NCBI GenBank assembly: GCA_914767715.1
Contig: OU612066.1
Coordinates: 37,298,283 to 37,362,282, forward strand
Length of the DNA stretch: 64,000 nucleotides
Source of the DNA: Membranipora membranacea
Taxonomy: Eukaryota; Bryozoa; Gymnolaemata; Cheilostomatida; Membraniporidae
Direction of reading: 5' to 3'
In this document: positions 40,739-59,108 of the stretch, one piece after another
How the letters are laid out: every line of letters starts with the position of its first letter
Position numbering within the stretch: the first letter of the stretch is position 1
Notes under the pieces: model-generated
What the model saw: only the letters and a program-made list of their open reading frames with translations
Told to the model about the DNA's origin: nothing
Databases searched by the model: none
Position numbers and translations under genes: made by a program

Positions 40739-42927
40739 TCAGCAGTTCGACTGCTGACCATTATGTATTTGAGCAATGGTGTTATTATGCTGAGACAGCG
40801 ACTCTGCTGGCAGCAGCGAAACGTCCCTTGCTGACGCAGCTATTGATGTTTCTATATCCGATGTAGGAACAGGTGTGCTGCGCTTCTTAACAACGACAGC
40901 TGCTATTATTATACCAACAGCTATTGTCATAGCACTAGCCCAACCCATCATTCCATATGTTAAACCGTCAGTGTCTGATCCTGCAAGCAAAGTCAAAAAC
41001 ACCATCATTTAAAGGGAAGAAGTTGAGATATTGACAACACAGTAATATCCATCTGGCTAGCTTACTGAACATCTTGGCACACTGATAAGATATGATGCCC
41101 AACTTACCTGCTATGGATTCCTGTTCTCCAGACTTGCTGAGACCGAGAGTTCTCTGGCACTCATAGTATCCTGGTGTGTTTATACAGACAGAGGGAGAAG
41201 GACAGAAGGCCTGTACCCATGTGTCGTTCTGACATTCATCTACATCTATCAACATCAAAATCATAACATGGATAGTGTTAGACAATAGAGAAACGAGTAC
41301 AAAGTCACAGGAAGGAGCAGCAGGAAAGTTTTTAGGGCTTAAGCGTCTGGTTAACTTTTAGAACCATGGCGAGTATGATGAGCATTTAAATCTAAAGCCT
41401 ATTATGTATCGATTTTCACAGTGCATTTCGTAATAATGTGCTAAATTTAAAATAAAGTTTATATATATGTAAGCATACCGAGACAGTCGAAGGTGTTATC
41501 ACTGAGATACCAGACGTCCTGGTTATACCCGATCGGAGGGTCGAAGCAGCTACAGGTGAATCCATCAGTTTGGTCGGTACAGATATGCTCGCACCCTCCA
41601 TTATTGTTGTCACATTCGTTTCTCAGGTCACACTTGGTACCGTTCAGAGTTAGTATACGGGTAGTTGAACCGCCGTTTTGCATCCTGGTTACCTGACAAG
41701 AGCAGGTATACAGCATGTTCGCCTGCCAGGCACACACTATATTTTCCGCTGTAAACAAAATGAATTTATACTGGTGAGAAAAGAGTGGTGATTGGTCAAT
41801 TTTTGTTTATATACTGCAAGAAAAAAGTCTGCATGAAAAAGGTCTGCATGTACACTTGCTCATATTGCTTACCTAGACAACCTCCTGTACCCTCGACGAG
41901 TTTAAAGGTTCCAGTCCCTGCTTCAGGACACTGACACTCTTGATAACCATAATCATTATTACTGCAGGTATACAATCCAAGGTGATTGAATGGGAAGCCC
42001 TGGCAGTCCGACTCTGGTATCTGCTCTGGGTATGTGGTGATCTGAGAAGCTGCGATCTGTCTAGTCTCTGGACACTGACAGTAATAACCTCCAGGGTAAT
42101 TCACACATGAGTCCACACAGCCATATTCACTGATATCGAGAGCACACTCATTGATATCTGAAAATTAGAATTACACAGTCAACACATGAAGTCACCAAAA
42201 CTGGGTTCTCTTACTTCAGGTAGATAATGAGGACAAGAAAAGCTTGGGTCAGTCTTCGGTCGAGAACAAATGGCGCTGTAGAGTCTCTCCGACTATTTAA
42301 TCATTGAGCAAACAGCACCCCAATATGCATCTCTACATAGTAAATCAAATTTCTACCAACAAGTTTCGAATCATGAATCGAGCCTCCCAAACTAACCTTC
42401 ACAGGTGAGGCCGTTATCAGAGAGGAGATATCCCGAGGCACAGCTACAAGTGAAGGAGCCGACATTGTTTGAACAAGTCTGCTCACATCCACCATTATTA
42501 ACGCTACACTCATCGAAGTCTGTACATGTAGTTCCGTTCTGTGGTGTTGGTACTCCAATGACATTACAGTAACACAGACGTCCATAGAAATACACATCCT
42601 CACAGTACTGTGTGCCACCTGTTAGAATTGAGAGAAAACAGCTTTCACTACACTGTAGGCATTGATGACACTCCTTTGTTTCTTTTGCAGGCCTTTTTAG
42701 AGACTTCATTTCAAACGATCAATATGTTTATGATAGTGTAGCTAATTGAATTCACTTACTGTCACAAGTGACTGATGGTCCAGGGATAAGCCTGGTTCCC
42801 TCACTACAGGCGCAGTAGAAGCCATCGAAGGTGTTGATACATATATCTTCACATCCTCCGTTGTTAGTCATACACTCATTCACGTCATCAGCATCTTGTC
42901 CAGGTAATCCATCGCGTCCATCATTAC
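40739..42927 (-). other. EGF, membrane-span and tail exons of the giant collagen
   Basis: Six phase-1 exons. The first (42927-42760) carries the last triplets [12 protein letters not shown] and then an EGF module. Modules at 42618-42397 and 41748-41479 contain NNGGCE, typical of calcium-binding EGF domains in fibrillin, LDLR-like and nidogen-like proteins. The 42157-41873 exon has two Cys-rich stretches separated by about 35 residues. The final exon gives Gly-Met-rich [12 protein letters not shown], an ~18-22 residue hydrophobic span, and a basic stop-transfer KKRS. This predicts a type I orientation, with the triple helix outside the cell. Confidence 0.85.
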
Positions 42928-57900: not shown

Positions 57901-59108
57901 ATTGGGAGTGACAAGGTATAATCAGAACATAATTATAGGGCCTCAGCTGCTACCTCAGCTCTAAAGTGTTGAACAAGAAATCCTCTCAGGTCAGTCACGG
58001 TGTGATTAATCTACCGTTAAAACTGGATCCTCCTCGAGATCAAGGGACCGCGAGCAGGTCTCAGTTTGTATATACAAGACTTGGCTTTTCTACGTCTCAA
58101 ACCCAAACTGTTATAGTGGTCTATATGAAGACGGACATAAGGAGGCGAAATGCAAATTTCTTGAGCTACTGACGATCAGAGATGGTTTATGTTACAAACA
58201 ATGAAAAGTCTATGCAAATAATGCAAGGTTTATAAAACAATGAAAACTTGGTGGATGCATGATAAAAAGCAGTGAAGTATTTTGATTATTTGCATAGAAA
58301 GGAAAAGTTGCTAGCTTTGTATATTACTACTCAAGTCTAATCTCTCTGAATGCATAATAACATTCTGTAACTTATTTGTCATGTCAGGATAAGCATCTTG
58401 GGCAAATAGTTAGCAAAAAATCTCATCCTTGAATGTCATTATCTTCTTAACCAACATTTTGTCTTGAGAATTTCGTGGGGATGTAATGTGATACGGAATC
58501 AGTGACGATGAAAGTGTGATCTCCGAGATTAAGGGCATGCCATACAATATCCTGTATATCAGCTGTGTAACGCCGACAAGTACGCAAAACCTCTCATAAT
58601 CAGCCATTCAATTCAACAACTAGAATGGATTTTCCATTGATGGCTCCAAAAAACTCAGGATGGCATCAAAATTTGTTTAGCGGATCTGCGGTTAAAAACT
58701 TGGGTGGTGAGCCAAAAATACATAGGCAATATCTAATGGGAGTCAACTCGTAGACAAGAAGAGTGATAAACATCTTTCAGCCCTAGGACGCATTACACAA
58801 CGTATCGAACCTACTTCATGTTGCAATTAGTAAGGCTCCCCATGTATCAAGCACAAGAAACTGTGCAAAATTGGGGATAAGGAGTTATTTGCCCTCAAGC
58901 TATGGGAAAATAACTAACCAAGTTGCTATGTATTACGATTAGAGGATATAATGGCTATACTGGACGCAAGGACACCTCAAGATATTACCAAAAAGTCGTG
59001 AAGTGATCGGGGTAGATACAAGAAGTGTTGTTATAAAATACACTTACTTTGTGATTGTACGAGGGTTATGATAAGCGCTGAACACGCTATCCCAACAAGG
59101 GTATGCAT
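40739..59108 (-). CDS. Giant threonine-rich transmembrane collagen with EGF modules
   Basis: Twenty minus-strand exons join in one frame to ~4,488 aa: 59108-59048, 57390-57068, 56669-56444, 56261-56025, 55887-53035, 52787-52041, 51910-51713, 51550-51074, 50882-49209, 49053-47398, 47170-46919, 46778-45708, 45592-44144, 44004-43087, 42927-42760, 42618-42397, 42157-41873, 41748-41479, 41245-41108 and 40980-40739. Order: signal peptide [20 protein letters not shown]; a ~180-aa domain I do not recognise (to ~203); Gly-X-Y helix ~207-4059, mostly [15 protein letters not shown] plus charged KGDKGDSG blocks; EGF modules with DVNEC, DFDEC, DINEC, RNEC and DVDEC to ~4405; membrane span [18 protein letters not shown] followed by KKRS and a ~50-aa tail. 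The helix has one early break (GPSGGPTG). From intron 3 on, every intron is phase 1. Known families with EGF plus collagen exist, but I recognise no orthologue. Confidence 0.9.
43087..56261 (-). other. Triple-helix-coding exon block, about 1,280 Gly-X-Y triplets
   Basis: Eleven exons, from 237 to 2,853 nt, all multiples of three, all starting inside a Gly codon (G|GN). The first (56261-56025) resembles ordinary animal collagen, with GPP, GFP and GPPGR triplets. The remaining ten are Pro-poor at Y and Thr-rich. At the usual ~0.29 nm per residue, the rod would be about 1.1 micrometres. Charged clusters such as EKGNKGDSG recur every few dozen residues between neutral [13 protein letters not shown] runs. 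Confidence 0.88.
56444..57390 (-). other. N-terminal globular domain exons of the giant collagen
   Basis: Two exons encode about 182 residues between the signal peptide and the helix. The domain has few Cys, alternating hydrophobic stretches ([42 protein letters not shown]), and N-glycosylation sequons NIT and NYT. Intron phases 1 and 0 frame its first half. The pattern suggests a beta-sandwich. I do not recognise the family; a trimerisation or adhesion role is conjecture. Confidence 0.7.

Follow-up and report, generated by a model that had tools for sequence, protein, structure and literature searches.

Background

The stability of animal triple helices is normally explained by hydroxyproline at the Y position of the Gly-X-Y triplet. 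Here we describe a predicted collagen gene of the bryozoan Membranipora membranacea, whose helix is dominated at this position by threonine and nearly lacks proline. The gene lies on the minus strand of a stretch of 64,000 nucleotides (assembly GCA_914767715.1, contig OU612066.1, positions 37,298,283 to 37,362,282), which we call the window and within which all positions given below are counted. We propose that a single gene of this animal encodes a collagen of the collagen-plus-EGF kind, anchored in the membrane with type I topology and playing a role in a coat, and consider the case for and against this statement evenly balanced, given that trimer formation, anchoring of the mature protein and the coat role are all deduced from sequence alone.

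Several described systems share features with the predicted protein. The EGF-domain collagens of Lingula anatina have been presented as a new group, some members of which were found in the shell and some of whose genes are arranged in tandem (Luo et al. 2015, PMC4595640). Figure 6 of that paper labels them, in its legend, with EGF, EGF_CA and FXa_inhibition. In the cuticle collagen of Riftia, the stabilising positions are reported to be occupied by glycosylated threonine and not hydroxyproline (PMC11766948, PMC6953826, citing Mann 1996 and Gaill 1995). Among the long annelid collagens, an Alvinella chain attains 8,859 residues, although its authors caution that a misassembly can hardly be excluded, and all eight of the tabulated chains contain 9–40% proline at X and 21.5–36% at Y (PMC12403961). 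Collagens XIII, XXIII and XXV, the MACIT collagens, are membrane-anchored (PMC4678570). Finally, threonine is reported to account for 31.6% of Y positions in all bacteria and 48.3% in Gram-positive bacteria, while human collagens show 33.5–42.2% proline or hydroxyproline at Y (PMC8968730).

A collagen gene of twenty coding exons

The gene was rebuilt from 59108 down to 40739 as 20 coding exons, which total 13,467 nucleotides and encode 4,488 residues followed by one stop. The joined frame contains no internal stops and all 19 introns are of the GT-AG type; this sequence-based model of one rebuilt gene confirms the observation of an earlier note on this DNA, which had described twenty exons and about 4,500 residues without a frame break. 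Exon 1 (59048..59108) supplies the start codon and the signal peptide, with a hydropathy peak at residues 1–22, and is followed by exons 2 (57068..57390, residues 21–128) and 3 (56444..56669, residues 129–203, by the splice model), which encode the first and second parts of an N-terminal domain (N-domain). Exon 4 (56025..56261) begins just three residues ahead of the helix, with the first glycine codon at 56253 by arithmetic, and carries a proline-richer helix start. Given this position of exon 4, the evidence for the joins of signal peptide, N-domain and helix consists of splice sites and matching phase alone.

The next ten exons lie wholly within the helix, and were delineated by the splice model, with exon 5 in addition matching the Pfam Collagen family (PF01391). 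They comprise exons 5 (53035..55887, 317 triplets), 6 (52041..52787, 83 triplets), 7 (51713..51910, 22 triplets), 8 (51074..51550, 53 triplets), 9 (49209..50882, 186 triplets), 10 (47398..49053, 184 triplets), 11 (46919..47170, 28 triplets), 12 (45708..46778, 119 triplets), 13 (44144..45592, 161 triplets) and 14 (43087..44004, 102 triplets). All ten have lengths that are multiples of 9 bases, so that each could be removed or copied with the Gly-X-Y register kept. Exon 15 (42760..42927) contains the end of the helix, whose final triplet closes at 42893 by arithmetic, together with the first EGF module, which makes the helix-EGF join independent of splicing. An AATAAA word, a candidate polyadenylation signal found by word search, begins 29 bases beyond the stop codon (40705..40710). 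At the other end, a 5' untranslated exon is likely at 60749..60891, where the 5' end at 60891 is the figure of the earlier note; its donor (ccaag/gtaag, at 60748) would splice to an acceptor (ttctttttta-g) before 59119, both recognized by eye.

Further evidence that the long frame is coding came from a comparison of repeat copies within the helix. In 146 pairs of 14-triplet windows with 75–92% DNA identity, which overlap and are not independent of each other, the differences per codon amounted to 0.12 at the first, 0.08 at the second and 0.49 at the third position. This concentration of differences at third codon positions suggests selection on the protein, and on its basis a chance open frame was rejected. 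Tandem repeats with periods of 9 to 135 nucleotides run throughout the helix and are hard to assemble, which raises the question of whether an assembly or gene-model artefact has inflated its length. However, exact direct repeats in the helix region (13,361 bases) are no longer than 38 bases, and tandem-repeat rows with a period of at least 45 bases never exceed an 88% match; hence no recent false duplication is visible, although collapsed repeats would not show up in this way, and we consider an artefact that inflates the helix very improbable.

The introns are in phase 0 between exons 2 and 3 and in phase 1 everywhere else. Thus, all boundaries from that of exons 3 and 4 onward are in phase 1, and any of exons 4 to 19, having this phase at both ends, could be skipped in frame. 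This would be compatible with several transcripts, in which exon skipping varies the length of the helix and the number of EGF modules, with some forms lacking the membrane span. Phase-1 symmetry is common in EGF exons generally, which counts against this reading, and we regard such a set of transcripts as rather unlikely.

Composition and internal order of the triple helix

The helix consists of 1,284 Gly-X-Y triplets (5 + 1,279), in good agreement with the approximately 1,280 near-continuous triplets noted earlier, and its sole break is one extra residue near the start, where the sequence can be read in two ways that shift the Y counts by one. The Y position is occupied by threonine in 786 of the 1,284 triplets (61.2%), followed by glutamine (137, 10.7%), lysine (131, 10.2%) and serine (71, 5.5%), with proline in only 13 (1.0%). 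Seven of these 13 prolines fall within the opening 46 triplets of the main run, which an eighth directly precedes. At X, the most frequent residues are alanine (335, 26.1%), asparagine (269, 21.0%) and glutamine (256, 19.9%), and proline accounts for 77 (6.0%). The dominance of Gly-X-Thr (GXT) triplets and the near lack of Y proline that had been remarked upon before are thus borne out by the counts, as is their corollary: 13 prolines in 1,284 Y positions are too few for hydroxyproline to be the chief stabiliser there. The main run is also free of cysteine, tyrosine and histidine. No Asn-glycosylation sequon or cysteine occurs in the helix, leaving threonine as the plain candidate for sugars. 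At a rise of 0.29 nm per residue (PMC8968730), the contour length would be about 1.12 micrometres if the chain were fully helical. Glycine in the helix is encoded mostly by GGA (618) and GGT (530), with GGC (93) and GGG (38) being less frequent.

Beyond its composition, the helix displays a marked internal order. When lysine-at-Y triplets lying within three triplets of each other were merged, they formed 88 groups with a mean gap of 14.6 triplets (about 12.7 nm by arithmetic) and a coefficient of variation of 0.39. When the groups were placed at random 5,000 times under an identical minimum gap, the mean coefficient of variation was 0.74 and the minimum 0.52, with none as low as the observed value. 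The near-regular spacing of the Y-lysine groups, more even than all 5,000 random placements, is a new observation. This test replaced a spectral charge period near 12.9 triplets, which we set aside because plain shuffling ignores clustering. Many of the Y-lysine groups are charged clusters, often of the form K-G-x-K-G-D, and 22% of the triplets of the helix are charged. GXT stretches, for the most part neutral, fill the segments between the groups; they are composed of recurring words such as GNTGNTGAT (36 observed versus 8.0 expected) and GQTGQTGQT (34 versus 3.6). Uncharged runs extend over at most 29 triplets, and proline-free runs reach 83 triplets. One unit of the helix is, for example, an 11-residue stretch followed by GATGNTGNT repeats.

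Comparison with prokaryotic and viral collagens

We compared the helix with 55 loci, consisting of 15 prokaryotic loci, obtained by a genome contig scan with the helix, and 40 viral loci, each represented by one best reading frame, such that helices split over frames are undercounted. The best segments of the 15 prokaryotic loci were 31–59% identical to the helix, which reflects the repeat common to collagens and is no evidence of descent. A tblastn search of phages with exon 5 gave no match, although the low-complexity filter was on, so that this result says little. None of the 13 comparator loci with at least 100 triplets has threonine at 50% or more of Y positions. In the 33 of the 55 loci that have 40 triplets or more, Y threonine peaks at 42% of 450 triplets, in Arenibacter algicola (L002), as opposed to 61% of 1,284 in the bryozoan helix. 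This helix is therefore far from the quoted values for animals and lies beyond the bacterial averages in Y threonine. The locus of A. algicola, with 450 unbroken triplets, and that of Zeaxanthinibacter enoshimensis (L001), with 578, have no Y proline and are flavobacterial collagens of a marine type.

The bacterial collagen-like proteins (BclA and Scl, and L001, L002, L004 and L005 of our set) resemble the bryozoan helix in that threonine is common and proline rare or absent at Y, and this resemblance raises the possibility that the bryozoan threonines carry no sugar. By analogy with bacterial collagens, charged clusters and a hydration network might hold the helix, in an animal that would live in the cold. 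In bacterial collagens the threonine at Y, which is so abundant in the Gram-positive forms, is reported to be mostly not glycosylated (PMC8968730); the prokaryotic loci L002, L004 and L005 combine 37–42% threonine with at most 1% proline at Y, and 72 words of the form GXKG[DE]Y are present in the bryozoan protein. On the other hand, it has neutral runs as long as 29 triplets and proline-free runs as long as 83, so that long stretches would lack clamps. Charged triplets make up a larger share (37–83%, compared with 22% here) in 10 of the 13 prokaryotic or viral loci that reach 100 triplets, which makes charge alone look thin as a stabiliser. On balance, we view unglycosylated threonine as a possible explanation that is somewhat unlikely.

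The N-domain, EGF part and membrane span

The N-domain comprises about 185 residues between the signal peptide and the helix. No match at E≤1 was found for it in Pfam or PHROGs, the single match in NCBIfam (E=0.02) is far below the cutoff, and three matches in PDB have E values of 0.11 to 2. The near-matches to carboxysome proteins (PDB E 0.11, NCBIfam 0.02) were taken as chance, because both begin within the signal peptide and the match in NCBIfam is far below the cutoff. A scan of viruses with exon 2 only yielded 5 stretches that fitted a pattern, none of which was confirmed. For the N-domain, which the earlier note had called novel, these four libraries provide no convincing match.

The C-terminal 429 residues contain only families of the EGF type according to Pfam, with FXa_inhibition (four stretches), EGF_CA (four) and cEGF (one) above the cutoff, and EGF_3 and EGF_LRP2 below it. 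From Pfam matches and cysteine positions, exon 16 (42397..42618) was assigned a four-cysteine module and EGF module 2, exon 17 (41873..42157) EGF module 3 and a four-cysteine module, and exon 18 (41479..41748) a four-cysteine module and EGF module 4; exon 19 (41108..41245) encodes, judging by its cysteines, a short EGF-like module 5 with four cysteines and a linker. Five Asp/Asn hydroxylation motifs are present in this part, which we take to belong to calcium-binding EGF modules. The three four-cysteine modules interspersed between the EGF modules (40739–42892, minus strand), counted by eye, are not named by any Pfam family above the cutoff.

Only two segments of the protein exceed the hydrophobicity threshold, residues 1–22 and 4415–4446. 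The latter contains a single predicted span at about 4421–4439, encoded by exon 20 (40739..40980, the span at about 40889–40945), which is followed by KKR and a 49-residue tail with cysteine as its last residue before the stop. This arrangement supports a type I membrane topology. Together, the hydropathy profile, the FXa_inhibition and EGF_CA matches and the tail bear out the signal peptide, EGF modules, single span and tail that had been read from the translation.

Relationship to described animal collagens

Among the closest described animal systems, the Lingula EGF-collagens share the combination of a collagen helix, EGF_CA and FXa_inhibition in one chain under the same Pfam labels, the comparison being one of descriptions. 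The words 'transmembrane', 'threonine' and 'proline' do not occur in the main text of PMC4595640, so the membrane span and threonine-rich helix are not described there. The collagen-plus-EGF kind is thus already in print, and the bryozoan protein is a variant of extreme composition. The occurrence of Lingula EGF-collagens in shell (PMC4595640) also favors another interpretation, namely that the bryozoan protein is destined for the matrix of a shell, cuticle or tube: the span would hold the chains during folding, and the ectodomain would then be shed into this extracellular matrix. The quasi-regular lysine spacing would suit lateral packing in such a matrix. Against this, no furin-like site was found by the furin patterns used, and the tie to the Lingula proteins is one of described domains; we rate a shed matrix collagen as conceivable and rather less likely than the membrane-anchored coat collagen proposed above.

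The MACIT collagens resemble this anchored collagen in their attachment to the membrane, and were rejected as its class on two grounds. They have type II topology, with an N-terminal cytosolic tail and span, whereas here the N-terminus bears a signal peptide and the span is C-terminal. In addition, their helix is interrupted into blocks, as opposed to one break of a single residue in 1,284 triplets. The lack of a furin-like site by the patterns used is a further difference from them. Likewise, fibrillar and type IV collagens were rejected, as no COLFI or C4 domain is present at the C-terminus.

The very long collagens of alvinellids, siboglinids and earthworms are comparable in chain length, reaching 8,859 residues, and the bryozoan protein is accordingly not the longest animal collagen. 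They differ sharply in their proline content, with the tabulated 9–40% at X and 21.5–36% at Y contrasting with 6% and 1% here. Riftia-type cuticle collagen shares with the bryozoan protein a very long helix with globular domains and the dominance of threonine over hydroxyproline at Y (786 threonines and 13 prolines in 1,284 triplets); in the sources cited above it is not said to have a membrane span. The parallel to Riftia that the earlier note had drawn holds for threonine at Y, but the proline content of the tabulated long annelid collagens is unlike that of the bryozoan helix. Its further statement, that no comparable animal collagen was known, was too strong in view of the Lingula EGF-collagens, for which the main text of the paper mentions no membrane span, and of the longer Alvinella collagen. 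Nevertheless, a literature search of open-licence papers did not return the combination of a membrane span with a threonine helix of such size, nor, by titles and opening lines of abstracts, any threonine-rich or Gly-X-Thr collagen of animals.

A model for the predicted protein

If the protein is indeed a membrane-anchored collagen-plus-EGF chain, three chains would pair after removal of the signal peptide by means of the membrane-proximal EGF part, and possibly also the N-domain, and come together in a triple helix that is almost unbroken and measures about 1.1 micrometres. The resulting rod would project from the cell and carry the N-domain at its far tip. The charged clusters around the Y lysines, about every 12.7 nm, could act as salt-bridge clamps, and the neutral GXT stretches would be held by Y threonine, which might be O-glycosylated as in Riftia or hydrated as in bacterial collagens; the model accommodates either. 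The most likely job of such a rod would be in a surface coat, or as a scaffold between the epithelium and an outer matrix such as cuticle, shell or mucus. Accordingly worded with these qualifications, the cell-anchored rod of about 1.1 micrometres put forward earlier is favored by the type I topology signals and by the contour length of a fully helical chain, and the interpretation offered in the earlier note is, as a whole, partly supported.

Several points weigh against this reading. The predicted fold of the exon-2 piece alone (106 residues) has a mean predicted local distance difference test score of 46, and no trimerising domain was identified in the protein. Membrane anchoring may be transient. 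Introns of the gene contain six further AATAAA words and exon 2 another, so that shorter transcripts are possible. Lastly, three of the 13 longer comparator loci (L003, L004 and L005) have fewer charged triplets (13–19%) than the bryozoan helix, and since L004 and L005 are low in both charge and proline, threonine-rich helices may stand without sugars of the animal type.

A bolder version of the model would see here a class of animal collagen in which a fixed scheme takes the place of hydroxyproline, with charge clamps at steps of about 12.7 nm and glycosylated GXT spacers, forming a membrane-tethered rod of more than 1 micrometre that projects a new N-terminal domain. We consider this version unlikely in its entirety. 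Even so, an animal helix under selection with 1% proline and 61% threonine at Y suggests that a micrometre rod may be built in another way, and its sequence allows a direct peptide test of sugar against salt bridges. For long recombinant rods, it provides a natural design that is poor in proline.

Neighboring features of the window

Multi-exon genes with 7tm_1, MIOX and EGF families mark the window as animal DNA. In its remainder the G+C content is 33–43%, and scans with Rfam and for tRNAs of the window found nothing. At its beginning lie the 3' exons of a gene on the plus strand (164–1803) with a GATase match (164–460), presumably CTP synthase-like. This is followed by a short-chain dehydrogenase gene (2550–3535, plus strand; adh_short match for 2550–3245), which we take to resemble sepiapterin reductase, and by a rhodopsin-family receptor of at least two exons (5606–7993, minus strand), which matches 7tm_1 with E 4.8e-32 over a 328-residue piece (7010–7993) and is presumably neuropeptide-receptor-like; receptors of this type are presumably bilaterian. 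Three myo-inositol oxygenase-like gene copies in alternating orientation occupy 10394–13196 (minus strand), 16286–18281 (plus strand) and 20823–23485 (minus strand); the Pfam MIOX match (E 6.7e-31) was obtained for one exon (12037–12312) and the other copies were judged by eye from translations. A multi-exon transporter gene lies at 30270–39053 (plus strand), for which the one piece searched gave just E 0.04 to Pfam Sugar_tr, and which we assume to be organic-cation-transporter-like. Within it, at 34764–34972, the translations reveal a minisatellite of five-residue (15-base) units that is open in several frames.

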